Below are positions 43,527-50,782 of a stretch of DNA of 64,000 nucleotides, one piece after another (the stretch's first letter is position 1; each line of letters opens with the position of its first letter). A program made the position numbers and the translations under genes. This DNA comes from Oscillospiraceae bacterium (GTDB lineage: Bacteria > Bacillota > Clostridia > Oscillospirales > Oscillospiraceae). The stretch lies in NCBI GenBank assembly GCA_017395085.1, contig JAFPWF010000019.1:62001-126000 (forward strand). Direction: 5' to 3'. The notes beneath the pieces were generated by a model. That model worked only from the letters and a program-made list of their open reading frames with translations, ran no database searches and was not told where the DNA came from.

Positions 43527-45139
43527 TATGTAGTGTAGACACAGTTCCCGCCCAAATAGCAGGCCTCTACGGCGACGTTATGAAGTTCGTGCGGATCAAC
43601 AGTGAAGGGGTTCTGATCCAGTATCACAAAGTCTGCCAGAAAGCCGGAAGCAATGCGGCCTTTGTAACCTTCTTCAAAGCTGGCCTCTGCGCTGCGGATT
43701 GTAAAGCTGTTAAGAGCCTCACGAACCGAAAAGGCTTCCTGCGGCAGATAGGGACCGGTTCCGTCAATAGAGGTGCGGGTCACGGCGCATTCAATGCCGC
43801 GCATCACATCCGGCAGTTCCACCGGGCAGTCAGAGCCGTTGGAAACCGACACACCGCTGTCAGCGAGGGTTTTCCAGCAGTAACTGGTTGAGGCAAGCTC
43901 GGGACCGATCCGGTTCAGGACAATGTGGTTGTCGTAATCAAGAAAGATGGACTGTGCGTAAACATGCATGTGAAGCGCAGTAATTCTTTCCAGCTGATCA
44001 GCCCGGGAAACTTGACAGTGCACCACACCGTGACGGTGGTCTTTGCGGGGGTGCTCCTTCAGCGCGAGATCCACGGCGTTGAGCACCTGGTCCAGACAGG
44101 CGTCGCCAATGGCATGGATGGCGACCTGCATGCCCTGTGCGTTTGCATAAGAGACCATTTCGTTCATGTGCTCGGAGCTGAAGAGCGAGAAACCGCAGGT
44201 TTCCGGCATATCTGCATAAGGCCGGGAAAGGTGAGCGGTATGGGCACCGAGCGCGCCGTCGCCAAGCATTTTGAGTGGGCCTATCTTGAAGAGCTCACTG
44301 CCGGCACCAGTTACATTGCCGGCTTCCACGAAGCGCTGGAGTTCGGGCAGGGTGGTGAAGTTCGCCTGCTCGTACACGCGCACGGTAAGCTCTCCGCTTT
44401 CTTCCAGTTCACGGTAGGCGGCGTTGACGGTCTCAAACGGGATGGCCCGGAAGACACAGTAGTCGTCGGTCTGAGAACTGGTAACGCCGTAGGAGTTGAG
44501 CGCCAGGCAGGCAAGGCGGATCATGTTTTTCAGCTCTTCCTTGTCTGGCAGCGGGATAAACGGCGTCAGAAGGTCAATGGCGTTATCATACAGCCGGCCG
44601 TCCGGAATGCCGTTCTCTTTCCCAATGTTACCGCCTTCTGGGGAAGGAGTATCTCCGGTAATTCCGGCGATCTCCAGAACACGCGAATTGACCACACAGC
44701 AGTGTCCGCAGGCGCGGGTCAGCATAATGGGAACCTCCGCGGAGACCGAATCAAGATCCGCACGGCTCGGCAGACGGCTGACATCGGTAAAGTAGTCCTG
44801 GTTCCAGCCGCGGCCGAGCAGCCAACTGCCGGGGCGCGGGGGATTGGAAGCCGCGTAATCACGCAGGTAGCTGAGCATTCCGGACAGGCTGTCAGTATGC
44901 TGTGCAAGCTGGGCGGCATTCAGCGACTGGCCGAGGTTCAGCAGATGCATGTGAGAGTCATTGAACCCGGGGCAGACAAAACGCCTGCCCAGATCCGAGC
45001 ATACGGTGTCATCATCGGCGAGAGCGCGGATCACCGCATCGGAACCAACCGCCAGAATTACACCGTCCTCAACCAGAAAGGCCTGCCGGAGAGTTTCCTC
45101 TCCGGTATAGACCTGCCCGTTGTACCAGATCGCTCTCAT
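43526..45139 (-). CDS. YtcJ-type metal-dependent amidohydrolase
   Basis: A 537-residue member of amidohydrolase family 3 (TIM-barrel metal hydrolases). The first metal motif is FNDSHMHLLNLG (residues ~58-69). Later ligand regions are VAIHAIGDACLDQVLNAVD and VVHCQVSRADQLERI, and SNGSDCPVELPDVMRGIECAVTR contains the terminal Asp. The N- and C-terminal beta-sandwich strands (MRAIWYNGQVYTGEE and DFVILDQNPFTVDPHEL) are typical. There is no signal peptide. It overlaps the transporter gene by ATGA and the acetyltransferase start by one base. In this operon it may hydrolyse an imported amide or N-acyl derivative; the substrate is unknown. Confidence 0.92.
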   Translation of the reverse strand: MRAIWYNGQVYTGEETLRQAFLVEDGVILAVGSDAVIRALADDDTVCSDLGRRFVCPGFNDSHMHLLNLGQSLNAAQLAQHTDSLSGMLSYLRDYAASNPPRPGSWLLGRGWNQDYFTDVSRLPSRADLDSVSAEVPIMLTRACGHCCVVNSRVLEIAGITGDTPSPEGGNIGKENGIPDGRLYDNAIDLLTPFIPLPDKEELKNMIRLACLALNSYGVTSSQTDDYCVFRAIPFETVNAAYRELEESGELTVRVYEQANFTTLPELQRFVEAGNVTGAGSELFKIGPLKMLGDGALGAHTAHLSRPYADMPETCGFSLFSSEHMNEMVSYANAQGMQVAIHAIGDACLDQVLNAVDLALKEHPRKDHRHGVVHCQVSRADQLERITALHMHVYAQSIFLDYDNHIVLNRIGPELASTSYCWKTLADSGVSVSNGSDCPVELPDVMRGIECAVTRTSIDGTGPYLPQEAFSVREALNSFTIRSAEASFEEGYKGRIASGFLADFVILDQNPFTVDPHELHNVAVEACYLGGNCVYTT

Positions 45140-46629
45140 GCGGTGGCGTCCTCCCCATGAAGGTCCTCATAGAAGAGCACGGCGTTCTCGTCCACGCTGC
45201 CGATGTTCATGTAGCGGGCCTTGTAATCACGCAGCAGGCGGAAGTAGTCGCCTGAGAGGATCAGGATGACTGCCACATTGATAAATGTTGGTATTGCCGA
45301 GGTGATATCGACAACTGTCCAGATGAAGCCCTGGTTGTTGGTCTTGACCAGGTAGATGGTCCAGAGCAGACCGGGCAGAGCACGAAGAGCGTAGAAGACC
45401 TTCATCAGAACCTTCTTCCAGGCGGAGTCGGAGTGGCCGAGATGTTCGAGAATTGCAAGGTAGTAGGTGAACCAGCCGCCGGAGGTGGTTACTGTGAAGA
45501 TGACCATGACGATGGCCAGCAGATACTTGCCGATGGTGCCGAAGCCCTGACCGAAGGCGGTAAGGGCCAGCGTGCCGCCGTTGGTGCCGTCGGTCCAGGC
45601 GCCGCTGAGGATGACCGCCAGAGCGGTGATGGTGCAGATGATGAAAGTGTCAAAAAATACTTCAAAGGAACCCCAGAGCCCCTGCTCGACCGGGTGAACG
45701 GTCTTGGCGGAGGAGTGGATCATCGGCGAGGTGCCCCAGCCGGCCTCGTTGGAGTACACGGCGCGGGCCATGCCAACACGAACCATCTGGCTGACGGCAC
45801 AGCCTGCAAAACCGCCGATTGCAGCGGTGCCGGTGAAGGCGTTGACGAAGATGGAGCCGATCGCTGCGGGAACGCGGGTGATGTTGACCAGGATCATCAC
45901 GATGCCCATCAGAATGTACACGACGCTCATAATAGGAACAAGCTTTGCAAAGGTGTTCGCTACGCCTTTCGTGCCGCCGCTGGTGATGATGTAGGTCAGA
46001 ATGGTGATAAACACGCCGACGATGACAATGCCTTCTATGGTCAGGCCGCCGAGATGCAGGTCACCGAGGTTCAGCGCACCGGAAACAACCTGGGAAGCGG
46101 TCAGCGTTGAAGAAGTGACAAAGAAGGTGGAGAAGATACCGATGGCGAAAATGATGCCGGGAATCAGCCACAGCTTGCCCCAGTGATGCTTTTCGCCCAA
46201 GCCCTGTTCCATGTAGTAGGTCGGGCCGCCGTAGGTATCGCCGTTATCCTTGCGACGGCGGTAGTAAAGACCGAGAGTAACTTCAACCTGCTTCAGAATC
46301 ATGCCGAGCGCCGCTGTCATCCACATCCAGAAGACGGCGCCCGGCCCGCCTGCCGCAACTGCGGTGGCAACGCCCGCAATATTTCCGAAGCCGACTGTGC
46401 CGCCGACGGCGGTCATGATTGCCTGGAAGGGGCTGATCATTCCTTCACGGGCTTCCGGACCGTGATTCTTGTGGAAGAGTGTTCCTGCTGTGTGCCGCCA
46501 GATGCGGCCAAAGTAGCGGAACTGGAAGCATCCGGAGCGGATGGTGAAGTACAGTCCGGTAACAACCATCAGGACGATCAGGGGAAGCCCCCAGAGTACT
46601 CCGTTAAGCCAGTTCAGAAAGTCGATCAT
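45136..46629 (-). CDS. AGCS-family amino acid:cation symporter under lysine-riboswitch control
   Basis: A 497-residue sodium-coupled transporter of the alanine/glycine:cation symporter family. The family signature is clear: GLYFTIRSGCFQFRYFGRIWR near the start, then ISPFQAIMTAVGGTVGFGNIAGVATAVAAGGPGAVFWMWMTAALGM (~70-115) and SNEAGWGTSPMIHSSAKT. About ten hydrophobic segments are visible. Known members carry alanine or glycine. The lysine riboswitch in the leader argues for a lysine-related substrate here. ATG 46629 has AAGGAG about 10 nt upstream; a longer frame to 46716 is rejected because it crosses the terminator. It heads a three-gene operon. Confidence 0.93.
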   Translation of the reverse strand: MIDFLNWLNGVLWGLPLIVLMVVTGLYFTIRSGCFQFRYFGRIWRHTAGTLFHKNHGPEAREGMISPFQAIMTAVGGTVGFGNIAGVATAVAAGGPGAVFWMWMTAALGMILKQVEVTLGLYYRRRKDNGDTYGGPTYYMEQGLGEKHHWGKLWLIPGIIFAIGIFSTFFVTSSTLTASQVVSGALNLGDLHLGGLTIEGIVIVGVFITILTYIITSGGTKGVANTFAKLVPIMSVVYILMGIVMILVNITRVPAAIGSIFVNAFTGTAAIGGFAGCAVSQMVRVGMARAVYSNEAGWGTSPMIHSSAKTVHPVEQGLWGSFEVFFDTFIICTITALAVILSGAWTDGTNGGTLALTAFGQGFGTIGKYLLAIVMVIFTVTTSGGWFTYYLAILEHLGHSDSAWKKVLMKVFYALRALPGLLWTIYLVKTNNQGFIWTVVDITSAIPTFINVAVILILSGDYFRLLRDYKARYMNIGSVDENAVLFYEDLHGEDATA

Positions 46630-46687
46630 GTTTTTGCACTCCTTTTTTGTATTTTGAACCAGTGCAATAGCTGATCTCACCGTCCGG

Positions 46688-46925
46688 AAAACAAAAAGCA
46701 GTGGTCTGGAAACCACTGCTCAAGTAACCGTGTCATGAGTCAATAGCTCCTCTACATTTTCTGTAGGAGTCTGCAGCCTGTTTGACTGCAGCCCAACTCC
46801 GGATCCCAGGTACATGGATTCGTGTTTCGGCGGGACTTCCTTTCACCGATCCGTGTTAACGACTGTACCGTCTCCGGTTCGGATACTGATAAGGCCCGCG
46901 CCTCTATTGCCGATGATTCAATTGT
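46688..46925 (-). promoter_or_regulatory. Lysine riboswitch upstream of the AGCS operon
   Basis: Minus strand: AGAGGCGCGGGCC (46905-46893) is followed by a P2 region, then GGTGAAAGGAAGTCCCGCCGAAA (46847-46825). P3 to P5 come next (CTACA-GAAAA-TGTAG before AGGAGCT). P1 is CAAT with ATTG (46744-46741). The terminator is AGCAGTGGT/ACCACTGCT (46697-46720) with TTTTTGTTTT. These are L-box features in the right order. In contrast to the nhaC leader, the P1 3' strand is not part of the terminator stem, so the sign of control cannot be read directly. Confidence 0.9.
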
Positions 46926-47054: not shown

Positions 47055-47098
47055 GGGTCAATTGACAGTTGACCCGCTATGAGAGACTATGGTGTAAT
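47055..47098 (+). promoter_or_regulatory. Operator-promoter of the ADP-ribosylglycohydrolase gene
   Basis: Inverted repeat GGGTCAA-N7-TTGACCC (47055-47075), with centre TTGACAG. The distal half-site provides the -35 TTGACC (47069-47074); an 18-bp spacer leads to TGTAAT (47093-47098). The core GTCAATTGACAGTTGAC recurs with one change at 49914-49930. Confidence 0.75.
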
Positions 47099-47134
47099 AT
47101 GACAGCGTAATCAAGAGAAAGGGAGGTGCCGGAT

Positions 47135-47929
47135 ATGATCGGTGCAATTATAGGTGATGTGGTGGGTTCCCGGTTTGAATTCCGGAACAGGTTAAGCAAA
47201 GATTTTCAGTTTCTTCATCCGGACTGTGAGTTTACGGATGATACGGTCATGACATGCGCTGTGGCTCAGGCGCTGCTGGACAGCAGGGAAGACTGGTCCG
47301 ATCTCTCGGAGAAGACAGTAGCCGCCATGCAGCGGATCGGACAGCGCTATCCCGACTGCGGATACGGGGCGCGTTTTATTCACTGGATGTTCAGTGATGA
47401 TCCCCAGCCTTACAACAGCTGCGGGAACGGATCCGCCATGCGCATCAGCCCTGTCGGTTTTGCGGCAAAGGACGTGGAGGAGGCAAAGCTTCTCTCCGCA
47501 AAAGTGACCTGCATCTCCCACAACCACCCGGAAGGCATGAAGGGAGCGGAAGCGACGGCGGTTGCCATCGTGATGGCTCGGCAGGGAAAAACGAAGGAAG
47601 AAATCCGGGATGTAATGTCAGAATACTATGACCTGAGCACGACCGTGGACATGTACCGGACAGCCTGGACTGGCCATGGACGCGAAATCTGTCAGGTTTC
47701 GCTGCCTCAGGCGCTGGTATGCTTTCTGGAAGGAAACGACTATGAAGACGTTATCCGCAACTGCGTTTCGATCGGGGGCGACTCCGACACGATTGCTGCT
47801 ATCGCCGGTGGAATCGCCGGGGCTTATTACGGCGTCCCGCAGGAGTTTCAGGAAAAACTGCTGGGATATCTTCCTGCGGATCTCAGGGAAATCGTGGAAG
47901 CATTTCGTGCCCGCTTCATGTCAGAGTGA
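47135..47929 (+). CDS. ADP-ribosylglycohydrolase family protein
   Basis: A 264-residue hydrolase that removes ADP-ribose from proteins or small molecules, using two divalent metals. The N-terminal MIGAIIGDVVGSRFEF, the metal-binding EFTDDTVMT (~33-41) and the C-terminal SIGGDSDTIAAIAGGIAGAYYG (~220-240) are hallmarks; GNGSAMRISPVGF lies in the middle. ATG 47135 is chosen because GGGAGG lies 8 nt upstream; a GTG at 47126 overlaps that site. It is convergent with the macro-domain gene across a shared terminator, and its promoter carries the same operator as the vWA-macro operon. Confidence 0.93.
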   Translation: MIGAIIGDVVGSRFEFRNRLSKDFQFLHPDCEFTDDTVMTCAVAQALLDSREDWSDLSEKTVAAMQRIGQRYPDCGYGARFIHWMFSDDPQPYNSCGNGSAMRISPVGFAAKDVEEAKLLSAKVTCISHNHPEGMKGAEATAVAIVMARQGKTKEEIRDVMSEYYDLSTTVDMYRTAWTGHGREICQVSLPQALVCFLEGNDYEDVIRNCVSIGGDSDTIAAIAGGIAGAYYGVPQEFQEKLLGYLPADLREIVEAFRARFMSE

Positions 47930-47955
47930 GAAGAACAGAATCATTCATGAAAAAG

Positions 47956-47986
47956 GAACGCCCGGAGAAATCCGGGCGTTCTCTTT
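47956..47986. terminator. Bidirectional terminator between ADP-ribosylglycohydrolase and macro-domain genes
   Basis: GAACGCCCGGA (47956-47966), loop GAAA, TCCGGGCGTTC (47971-47981), then TCTTT; on the minus strand it is followed by CTTTTTC. Confidence 0.85.
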
Positions 47987-47998
47987 GTGGATTGCTTC

Positions 47999-49138
47999 TC
48001 ATGCATAGGAACCGAGCAGAGCTAGGTCCCTGTCGAAAAGCTCAAGGTTGATCTCATCAATGTCATACATTTGTTTGCGGATACGGTCTTCTACGACTCT
48101 GTCTGTTTCGTAATATTTGCTGAGCGTCATGCCGGCCCGGCCCAGCAGGTCAATGGCCTGGTCGTAGTCAAGTCTTAATCCGATCACGCAGGCGAGAGCA
48201 TTGGTTTTCTTGGGAATCTGTCTCGGATTATTCTTCATATTCCAGAACATAGCCTTGTTGATATTTGCCTGAATATAGAATTCTTTCTTGGTAATGCCCT
48301 TTTCCGAGCACCACCACTCGCACATCTCGGCAAATGAGAGATCAACATCCCGGTATCTGTCATCTGGAGAATGTGCTTCTGGAGCGGCAACCGGAACGGG
48401 GGCGGACATAACCGGAATGGAATCTGACGGTATCGCCGGGGAAACATCAGGTACAGCTTCCTCCATAAAGACAGGTTTACCGTACGGTCGTACAGAGGGC
48501 AGAATATCGTCCCGGTCATACGGCCTGTTATGTCCCCGGCGCCTTTCGGAACGGTTACCCTTGTAGTGGGAATGCAGGTCCGCCTTCTTTTTATATGTGT
48601 ATTCTTCATCAATGTACTGCTCTACTTCCGAATCTACCTTCTCACTGACGGCAACCGAATCACGGTCAAACAGGACAAGGTAAACCATCATATCCTCGTC
48701 GTCAGGGAGGGAGAGAAGAAATTCACGGATGCAGGATGTGGCGATGCTGTAGGCTTCCGCCTTCGGATACCGATAAGCCCCGGTGGAGATGGAAGGGATG
48801 GCCAGCGACCTGCAGCCCTTTCCCCTTGCAAGAGAAAGAATGCTCCGATAGCAGCTTCTCAGCTTTTCGGCTTCTCCGTTACTGCCATCCCAGTAAACAG
48901 GGCCGACCGTATGGATGATGTATCTGCAGCTCGTTATGTGAAACGAATCAGTAATGACTGCGGAACCGACCGGGCAGTACCCGATCTCTGCCAGGGCTTT
49001 CTTCAGCCCGGGGCCGGCGGCATAGTGGATCCCTGCGTCAACACCGACACCGCCGACTTCAAAATACTCGTTTGTGGTGTTCACAATCGCATCGACATGC
49101 ATTTTCGTGATGTCGTTGCGTACGATGGTCAACGCCAT
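47999..49138 (-). CDS. Macro-domain protein with C-terminal XRE-like helical domain
   Basis: A 379-residue protein. Residues ~1-170 form a macro (ADP-ribose-binding) domain: MALTIVRNDITKMHVDAIVNTTNEYF, the loop GGVGVDAGIHYAAGPGL (usually GGGVDGAIHRAAG) and PSISTGAYRYPKAEAYSIA. A charged, Pro-rich linker (~175-265) follows. The C-terminal helical domain (SFAEMCEWWCSEKGITKKEFYIQANINKAMFWNM to IDLLGRAGMTLSKYY) resembles an XRE helix-turn-helix. Clostridial macro proteins often carry such a tail. ATG 49138 follows GGGAGG. It lies 41 nt after the vWA gene in one operon. It may bind or remove ADP-ribose, and the tail could bind nucleic acid. Confidence 0.88.
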   Translation of the reverse strand: MALTIVRNDITKMHVDAIVNTTNEYFEVGGVGVDAGIHYAAGPGLKKALAEIGYCPVGSAVITDSFHITSCRYIIHTVGPVYWDGSNGEAEKLRSCYRSILSLARGKGCRSLAIPSISTGAYRYPKAEAYSIATSCIREFLLSLPDDEDMMVYLVLFDRDSVAVSEKVDSEVEQYIDEEYTYKKKADLHSHYKGNRSERRRGHNRPYDRDDILPSVRPYGKPVFMEEAVPDVSPAIPSDSIPVMSAPVPVAAPEAHSPDDRYRDVDLSFAEMCEWWCSEKGITKKEFYIQANINKAMFWNMKNNPRQIPKKTNALACVIGLRLDYDQAIDLLGRAGMTLSKYYETDRVVEDRIRKQMYDIDEINLELFDRDLALLGSYA

Positions 49139-49179
49139 GATAGAGGCCTCCCGTCCAGTGAAGTCGGCGGTATTATACC

Positions 49180-49833
49180 TTAATTCCCGCGCTTGTGAAA
49201 GTCCCTGTCGACATTTTCACGCCAGGAATACTCTTTATCCAGCGAACGCCCGGAACGTACAGCCCTAACGGCGCAGTTGATGCTCTCATATACTCTGGTA
49301 GTTCCCATGGGATCATCACGGTAGTTGACAGCTCTCTCACTACGGATACCGTAACGCTCGGCGGTTTCCACAGCGTCGATATTGGCGGCAAGGAATATGA
49401 ATTCCCAACCGTACTTTTCCTGCTCATGGATGATCATCTTTTTTACCTGGTCCGAAGTGTACTTGTGGCTGGCGTTTTCCATGCCGTCTGTCGTAACTAC
49501 GAAAATGGTGTGTCCCGGAATGTCTTCAGGGCGTGCGTAACGGTGAATACTGACAATATGGCGGATTGCATCACCGAGGGCATCGATCAGAGCGGTGCAG
49601 CCGGCGGCACGGTAATCAGCGTTTGTCATGGCGGGTACCTCCCCGATGGGAAGCCGGTCATGAAGCATTCTGCTGTTATTGTTGAAGAGGTAAGTTGTGA
49701 CGAACACTTCGCCGTCCTTGTTTGCCTGCTCTTTCAGCACACTGTTGAATCCGCCGACCGTGTCGTCGGTCAGATGACCCATAGAGCCGCTCATGTCGAG
49801 AATAAAGACCAGTTCAGTCCGGTTCTGATTCAT
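49180..49833 (-). CDS. von Willebrand factor A domain protein
   Basis: A 217-residue soluble vWA protein. The metal-ion-dependent adhesion site is complete: DMSGSM (~14-19), the Thr in GCTALIDAL (~78) and TTDGMEN (~113). The sequence MNQNRTELVFILDMSGSMGHLTDDTVGGFNSVLKEQ matches cytoplasmic vWA proteins that occur with macro and Ter-type proteins. There is no signal peptide. ATG 49833 follows AAAGGAA. It is the first gene of the operon with the macro-domain gene, behind an operator shared with the ADP-ribosylglycohydrolase gene. A scaffold role in an ADP-ribose-related complex is an inference. Confidence 0.9.
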   Translation of the reverse strand: MNQNRTELVFILDMSGSMGHLTDDTVGGFNSVLKEQANKDGEVFVTTYLFNNNSRMLHDRLPIGEVPAMTNADYRAAGCTALIDALGDAIRHIVSIHRYARPEDIPGHTIFVVTTDGMENASHKYTSDQVKKMIIHEQEKYGWEFIFLAANIDAVETAERYGIRSERAVNYRDDPMGTTRVYESINCAVRAVRSGRSLDKEYSWRENVDRDFHKRGN

Positions 49834-49888
49834 TTCAATTCCTTTCCGGATCGGCTTCGATCCCTGTTATTTGTGATCACGCCGAAAG

Positions 49889-49930
49889 GATACAGCGGAA
49901 ACACCCTGAAGTGGTCAATTGCCAGTTGAC
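49889..49930 (-). promoter_or_regulatory. Operator-promoter of the vWA-macro operon
   Basis: Plus-strand GGTCAATTGCCAGTTGACT (49913-49931 region) is the same inverted repeat as at 47055-47075. On the minus strand the downstream half gives -35 TTGACC (49918-49913), an 18-bp spacer and TGTATC (49894-49889). The geometry is the same as at the other copy. Confidence 0.72.
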
Positions 49931-49953
49931 TGTGACAGAAATAATTACAGGAC

Positions 49954-50029: not shown

Positions 50030-50782
50030 ATGTTGCTCGACAGAGAAAAAGTTACCCGGGCTTTCGATCAGTATGTTTCAGATTACAATGCGGATGATCC
50101 GAAAATCCGGCTGAAGATCGATCACACCTATCGGGTTGCCGCTTTGTGCGAGCAAATCGGGCAGGCGGTTCCAGTCGTCGATACCGATCTGGTATGGCTT
50201 TGCGGGATGCTTCATGATATCGGGCGCTTTGAACAGGTCAGGAGATACAATACCTTTGTGGATGCCGTGTCAGTGGAACACGCTGCCTTCGGTGCAGATC
50301 TTCTGTTCAACGAGGGACTGCTGAACCGCTTTTGCACAGGCCTTTCGGAAACGGAACAGCGAATTCTTGAATGCAGCATTCGAAATCACAGCGCGTATCG
50401 GCTTAGCCCCGATCTCAGTGAGACAGAGATCACATACAGCAATGTACTGCGCGATGCCGACAAGATCGACATTTTTCGTGTAAACTGCGATACTCCGCTG
50501 GAGGAAATCTACAATGTCACGACCGAAGACTTGAAGAATTCCTTTGTCAGTGAAGAGGTAAAGGAATGCTTTCGGAACCGGACTGCGGTTTTGAGAAAGT
50601 TGAAGAAAACCCCGATCGATTATGTCGTGGCCCATCTCTGCCTGGTTTTCGAACTGGTGTATCCCATCAGCAGGGTGATTGCCCGCAAGCAGGGTTACGC
50701 GGACAGGATGCTGTCCTTTGAGTCTGATAATCCGGACACCGCGGAATGGTTCGCTATGATGCGAAGCACAATCTGGGAGTGA
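50030..50782 (+). CDS. HD-domain phosphohydrolase family protein
   Basis: A 250-residue cytoplasmic protein. The metal-binding HD pattern is visible: His in KIDHTYRVAALCEQI (~29), HD in WLCGMLHDIGRFEQ (~66) and Asp in NVLRDADKIDIFRVN. Members act on nucleotides or other phosphoesters; the substrate is unknown. ATG 50030 follows GCGGAGGA. It is divergent from the vWA-macro operon and followed 72 nt later by a helicase gene. A possible link to the ADP-ribose module is positional only. The gap 50783-50854 holds a short hairpin TCAGGCA/TGCCTGA and a good ribosome binding site. Confidence 0.82.
   Translation: MLLDREKVTRAFDQYVSDYNADDPKIRLKIDHTYRVAALCEQIGQAVPVVDTDLVWLCGMLHDIGRFEQVRRYNTFVDAVSVEHAAFGADLLFNEGLLNRFCTGLSETEQRILECSIRNHSAYRLSPDLSETEITYSNVLRDADKIDIFRVNCDTPLEEIYNVTTEDLKNSFVSEEVKECFRNRTAVLRKLKKTPIDYVVAHLCLVFELVYPISRVIARKQGYADRMLSFESDNPDTAEWFAMMRSTIWE

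Follow-up and report, generated by a model that had tools for sequence, protein, structure and literature searches.

Two gene units in one stretch of Oscillospiraceae DNA (64,000 nucleotides, hereafter the window) share a palindrome, and the question raised by this locus is which protein binds the palindrome and what response it would control. The 17-bp palindrome occurs in two copies in the window, at 47057-47073 and at 49914-49930, and the central base alone differs between them. Operator 1, GGTCAATTGACAGTTGACC (47056..47074, plus strand), precedes an ADP-ribosylglycohydrolase gene, and operator 2, AGTCAACTGGCAATTGACC on the minus strand (49913..49931), precedes a vWA-macro operon. The outer G and C of the 19-bp palindrome at 47056-47074 are kept in operator 1, not in operator 2. 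With up to three mismatches allowed, only these two places in the window were found, both strands matching at each, and none of 100 shuffled windows reached the observed match count (mean 0.12). The preliminary description of this DNA had given two copies differing by one base and two convergent units; our analysis confirmed the coordinates, the central-base difference and the convergent order.

The plus-strand gene (47138..47929) encodes a 263-residue protein of the ARH/DraG family (ADPRGH; Pfam PF03747, E 8e-42). Its top matches among solved structures were ARH3, with which its segments TDDT and GGDSDT align, and both the ARH/DraG profile and the motifs were found in it. We take these two segments to be metal-site motifs. 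The first gene of the minus-strand operon (49180..49833) encodes a vWA domain protein of 217 residues, whose match to PF05762 was below the cut-off (20.3 versus 26.4 bits) and whose relatives are called "vWA domain-containing protein" in two annotated records. The other gene (47999..49138, minus strand) encodes the proposed regulator, a 379-residue protein that we call macro-HTH, with a macrodomain at residues 19-133 (PF01661, E 3e-33). None of the ADPRGH, macro and vWA proteins matched the anti-phage defence models of PADLOC-DB 2.0.0 at E<=0.001.

An AlphaFold2 model of macro-HTH predicted a macrodomain, a low-confidence linker and then a helical C-terminal domain. This C-terminal HTH domain (120 residues; 48002..48361, minus strand) has no Pfam match, and its predicted fold resembles XRE/Cro. 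The predicted recognition helix (residues 294-303, NKAMFWNMKN) is encoded at 48230..48259 on the minus strand; in the model, residue 294 would lie just before helix 295-303 and residue 296 inside it. No further copy of the HTH was found in the own genome at E<=10. The macrodomain is of the MacroD type (DR_2288, E 6e-36; Foldseek matches YmdB and MacroD2). Residues D9, N20, G32, D34 and H38, presumably those of the macrodomain pocket, were kept in 76/76, 72/76, 76/76, 75/76 and 73/76 sequences of alignment A3, respectively. With most pocket residues kept, the macrodomain may have an enzymatic role, whether in addition to sensing or in place of it. The N-terminal domain clearly belongs with the MacroD-type hydrolases (YmdB, MacroD1/2, DR_2288); however, the sequence matches to solved structures span residues 1-169 only, and the C-terminal HTH and the link to an operator are extra.

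Our analysis of relatives showed that the palindrome is conserved. The vWA protein was present in 27 of the 60 genomes searched (own genome included), and by a lenient score each of the 27 genes is preceded by a palindrome with this geometry; the -10 box begins at 20 bp in 26 of them and at 19 bp in the remaining one. When GTDB contigs were scanned with a vWA alignment, at least 546 relatives were found, of which the best 80 loci were kept. In 74 of these 80 the palindrome lies upstream of vWA. Among the other six, the palindrome of four stands ahead of an ADPRGH gene located before vWA, L128 has the promoter-proximal half only, and L173 has none. Conservation in relatives, on which the preliminary description had made its shared operator depend, was thus found in both sets. 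In 72 of the 80 loci the HTH domain and vWA are no more than 2.7 kb apart, and in 47 the HTH domain is directly upstream. Across Bacillota, the palindrome of the vWA and ADPRGH orthologues is mostly GTCGC-N7-GCGAC rather than GTCAA-N7-TTGAC, and the putative vWA-linked operator system is widespread in this group. The 17-letter operator is also found again in many bacteria, those of the gut among them. For ADPRGH, 18 matches were found and 12 upstream regions were used; the six matches set aside were one gene that follows vWA in an operon and five that were weak or partial. The palindrome and -10 box were present in 7 of the 12 (own genome included), six at 20 bp and one at 19 bp. The operator is absent from the remaining five, which we count against the regulon reading.

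The spacing to the -10 box is also conserved. At 78 sites of other genomes (the 74 palindromes upstream of vWA and the four upstream of an ADPRGH gene preceding vWA), TAnnnT begins exactly 20 bp downstream of the operator in 76 and at 19 bp in one. In the window, the putative -10 box of ADPRGH is TAATAT (47095-47100, plus strand), placed by the conserved spacing and by a match to the composite pattern; that of the vWA-macro operon is TATCCT (49892-49887, minus strand), placed by the conserved spacing. Each begins 20 bp after its operator. The preliminary description had put a TGTAa/t -10 box 18 bp from TTGACC, which is 2 bp off. Because conservation sets the -10 box at 20 bp, TTGACC is not a normally spaced -35 element, and an ordinary -35 role for it was ruled out. 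A divergent HD gene at 50030 was considered as a further target of operator 2 and rejected, since by eye there is no TAnnnT 20 bp away on that side.

If the -10 box is assumed to end at -7, the centre of the operator falls near -42, with no normally spaced -35 element. Judged by sequence, a class II activator would be placed in this way. A comparison is offered by lambda cI, which acts on PRM from OR2: its operator is 17 bp long, is symmetric through the central base and is centred near -42. The operator length and the position are alike in the two systems, and the fold may be cI-like as predicted, but the sensor domain differs, there is no phage switch here, and any kinship is suggested by the predicted fold. 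The same site could also serve a repressor, with a macro-HTH dimer blocking the promoter until an ADP-ribose compound frees it. XRE proteins are often repressors, and a site of the GTCAA class contains a good -35-like TTGACC. However, in most sites, which form the commonest class, the promoter-proximal half is GCGACC, and its 20 bp to the -10 box is long for a standard -35 (normally about 17 bp). Such exact spacing would be needless for a repressor, and we regard repression as unlikely.

We then searched the own genome (2.52 Mb, 86 contigs, 84.5% complete) for exact matches to GTCAAY-N5-RTTGAC and found four places. Two are the operators of the window. The third (C61:201153) is ahead of a gene for a 195-residue zinc-ribbon protein, named by eye and with no Pfam match, and the fourth (C85:31774) is ahead of a gene for an 815-residue protein with vWA/YfbK domains and an HTH match below cut-off. 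At all four sites TAnnnT begins 20 bp after TTGACC. The operator with its -10 pattern matched 24 times in 345 genomes of the order (own genome included), four times in the own genome and 20 times in the other 344, with at most one match per genome; the reversed control gave 6. Even when all 20 outside matches were counted as chance, the Poisson probability of four or more in the own genome was about 7e-7.

The shared operator and ADP-ribose-related regulon of the preliminary description are supported, the copies being few and conserved in relatives. Many copies at unrelated genes, which it had named as grounds for refutation, were not found: the genome has just four copies, two of which precede genes that are not obviously ADP-ribose enzymes. 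These two targets are rare genes, which also counts against the regulon reading. Among 60 genomes (own included), no orthologue of the HTH-YfbK gene was found elsewhere at E<=1e-30, and the zinc-ribbon gene gave one partial match (G050), with no operator directly upstream.

Exact composite matches in 24 relatives numbered 19, of which 16 were at vWA, two at ADPRGH and one at a BtpA-family gene. With one-mismatch matches included, the same 24 genomes gave 32 against 33 in the control, and a one-mismatch scan of 61 genomes of the genus yielded about 77 places where the reversed control yielded 39; because of these control counts, exact matches were used alone. In 50 genomes chosen for such vWA loci, there were 60 exact matches, 49 of them expected by construction, against 4 in the reversed control. 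Of the 11 extra sites, six are ahead of vWA or ADPRGH, three are ahead of other genes (HIRAN, HD_4 and a Sel1/zinc-ribbon cluster, named by eye), and two (L271, L275) are chance-like. The sites therefore concentrate on vWA and ADPRGH, though not exclusively. One of the extra vWA sites comes after a NADAR gene. In genome G027, macro-HTH and ADPRGH are separated by a NucS_C gene; NucS_C and ADPRGH are each preceded by an operator with one mismatch.

The palindrome might act instead as an RNA hairpin, for example as a terminator downstream of the macro gene or as a processing site there. Two of three tested 39-nucleotide stretches fold better than their shuffles (z -2.6 and -2.5), but the vWA site of the window does not (z +0.71). 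The fixed distance of the sites upstream of a -10 box, and the own-genome sites that precede genes on other contigs, argue against a hairpin, which we hold to be very improbable.

The evidence on which protein binds the operator came from the predicted recognition helix. We classed 88 rows by the promoter-proximal half-site of the operator; they comprised the window, 17 relatives and 70 loci out of the 80. The ten loci excluded were five with no helical domain, three in which it was more than 2.7 kb away, L139, which was cut, and L173, which has no operator. Residue 296 was non-basic in all 13 GTCAA rows, five of which have a different distal half-site and one of which (L128) was classed from its half-site. 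In the other 75 rows (73 GTCGC, one GTCTC, one GTCGT) residue 296 was Lys or Arg in 74; the exception, L143, combines an SKQ helix with a proximal half of GTCGC. In L193, residue 294 is Ser despite a GTCGC operator. Operators of a sub-class with GTCTC in one half go with DKK or GKK helices. As a forward test, three more GTCAA vWA loci were found by the DNA pattern first, among its 20 matches outside the own genome, two of the three sharing one genus. Their helices were SRQ, SKQ and SKQ, with residue 296 non-basic as predicted, which brings GTCAA operators with a non-basic residue 296 to 16/16. In a search for macro-HTH in 12 chosen genomes, the helix was found in eight, and all eight matched the operator class at residue 296.

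A column scan was done on 73 labelled rows (12 GTCAA, 61 other). Residues 296 and 294 came top of the 327 macro-protein columns, with overlaps of 0.02 and 0.03. The best of the 212 vWA columns had an overlap of 0.34 and was far weaker. The next-ranked macro-protein columns were 275, which belongs to the same domain, and 25, 184, 27 and 35, which do not, with mutual information of 0.46-0.55 versus 0.59 and 0.56 for the top two. Columns outside the helix thus track the class as well, and therefore the helix-operator correspondence owes part of its strength to shared ancestry. On a vWA tree the operator class switches five times and the helix class six times. Well-supported branches gave only two independent pairs, which agreed in nearly all random pairings and are too few for significance (p 0.5).

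These last results bear on whether macro-HTH is the binder at all. An unlinked transcription factor might bind the operator; macro-HTH would then be a hydrolase of ADP-ribose whose tail binds nucleic acids, and the helix correspondence would come from a gene cassette inherited together. This would fit the few well-supported independent switches, the further macro-protein columns that track the class, and the four of the 12 chosen genomes (G015, G010, G034 and G028, with incomplete assemblies) that bear the operator but in which the macro-HTH protein was not found. However, co-inheritance leaves unexplained why both top columns of 327 fall where the predicted recognition helix begins, the vWA columns being far weaker. 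In addition, the vWA proteins of L129 and L133 are close relatives, but the two loci differ in operator and helix together. An unlinked factor therefore seems to us distinctly improbable. Rather, judging from the helix-operator correspondence, macro-HTH likely binds DNA specifically, and its XRE-like C-terminal domain, which the preliminary description had named as one candidate DNA binder, is now the leading hypothesis.

Taken at a probability of roughly 0.7, our main reading is that macro-HTH is a one-component activator with a macrodomain sensor that controls ADP-ribose-processing genes; we infer for it binding, activation, ligand and role alike. A dimer of the C-terminal XRE-like domain would bind the 17-bp operator near -42, replacing the -35 element, and would help RNA polymerase start from the -10 box 20 bp downstream. 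The N-terminal macrodomain would sense an ADP-ribose compound and set the activity, candidate ligands being free ADP-ribose, O-acyl-ADP-ribose and ADP-ribosylated nucleic acid. Putative targets here would be ADPRGH, the vWA-macro operon, the HTH-vWA(YfbK) gene and the zinc-ribbon gene, with HIRAN, HD_4 and BtpA genes added in single relatives. As the vWA-macro operon is among its targets, macro-HTH would regulate itself. After stress, toxin or phage attack, the response might serve to strip off ADP-ribose marks or to clear ADP-ribose.

NrtR is the nearest known regulator type to macro-HTH. It has ADP-ribose as ligand and a winged-helix domain. Like NrtR, macro-HTH would be a one-component regulator with a domain related to ADP-ribose enzymes; NrtR itself controls NAD metabolism. 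But NrtR has a Nudix-related domain and is an auto-repressor, whereas a macrodomain sensor, an XRE-like binder and an activator-position site are proposed here; no Nudix domain was found in macro-HTH, Macro being its sole Pfam match at E<=0.001. In PMC6800001, NrtR is introduced as the Nudix-related transcriptional regulator of NAD metabolism and as an auto-repressor. The accessible portion of PMC7159879 describes vWA-centred NTP-dependent conflict systems with macrodomains as possible effector enzymes, so vWA and macrodomain proteins occur there in one system, but an HTH-macro regulator and the present operator do not appear in that portion. In the open-licence literature we found no description of a macrodomain-HTH regulator with such an operator or vWA link.

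The family extends further. At least 8000 proteins match the C-terminal domain of macro-HTH. Among the 120 matches listed, 117 also have a Macro domain, and the four named ones are all called "O-acetyl-ADP-ribose deacetylase". In six loci from named records, the helix is DRK or DRR in all six, and a GTCGC operator with TAnnnT at 20 bp is present in five; at L342 the macro-HTH protein is present with no operator nearby. Bacilli (Niallia taxi), Negativicutes (Selenomonas ruminantium plasmid pSRC2) and a phage are represented among these loci. Two non-pathogens, Peptoclostridium acidaminophilum and Niallia taxi, have the arrangement. On the Selenomonas plasmid, ADPRGH and vWA each stand behind their own operator, as in the window.

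According to PMC11833690, ADP-ribosyl-hydrolases are divided among macrodomain, ARH and NADAR families, and the physiological functions of several bacterial ADP-ribose-removing enzymes are called unexplored. Members of each of these three families occur within the regulon or next to it. Certain macrodomains might serve as sensors, as put forward in PMC9503650, and guanosine ADP-ribosylation is the subject of PMC11543638. A wider reading, to which we give slightly less than an even chance, is that of a widespread activator family, probably with thousands of members, in which the macrodomain senses ADP-ribose or ADP-ribosylated nucleic acid and sets off an inducible response to ADP-ribosylation, through a regulon in or beside which stand the three hydrolase families, vWA and, in places, DNA-repair-like proteins.

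Our analysis gives bacterial ADP-ribose-removing enzymes a concrete candidate regulator, operator and target list, testable in named organisms, together with a candidate protein-DNA code of two residues and two base pairs per half-site. It also suggests that many proteins named after the macrodomain alone would bear an incomplete name. If the reading is true, the macrodomain would be the input of a transcription switch.

Operator 2, the copy ahead of the vWA-macro operon, lies between vWA and an HD-domain gene that is divergent from it (50030-50782, + strand), and no -10 was found at 20 bp on the HD-domain gene side. In the genome G127 (locus L267), an HD_4 gene is among the putative operator targets predicted from sequence. 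A BtpA-family gene is preceded by an exact operator and a -10 in locus L278 (G018:C35:17067). In the genome G027 (locus L277), macro-HTH and ADPRGH are separated by a NucS_C nuclease-like gene; a one-mismatch operator precedes this gene, another precedes ADPRGH, and a SIMPL-like gene, assigned by eye, is next after ADPRGH.

A lysine riboswitch (RF00168, 79.3 bits; 46736-46914, - strand) was identified in the window upstream of a sodium:alanine symporter-family gene (45136-46716), which suggests that this gene encodes a lysine-regulated transporter.

Vescimonas plasmid pMM35_01 (L342) encodes a macro-HTH protein with the DRK helix; no operator was found near this gene, and one gene farther along there is a gene for a DNA methylase. 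In the genomes G015, G010, G034, and G028, vWA or ADPRGH is preceded by operators, and our search of these incomplete assemblies found no macro-HTH protein.

Among the loci that contain the macro-HTH/operator/vWA unit, one is from a phage (PV036457.1, 11154-19182; L343) and one is from Selenomonas plasmid pSRC2 (L341). Therefore, the unit may move between hosts.
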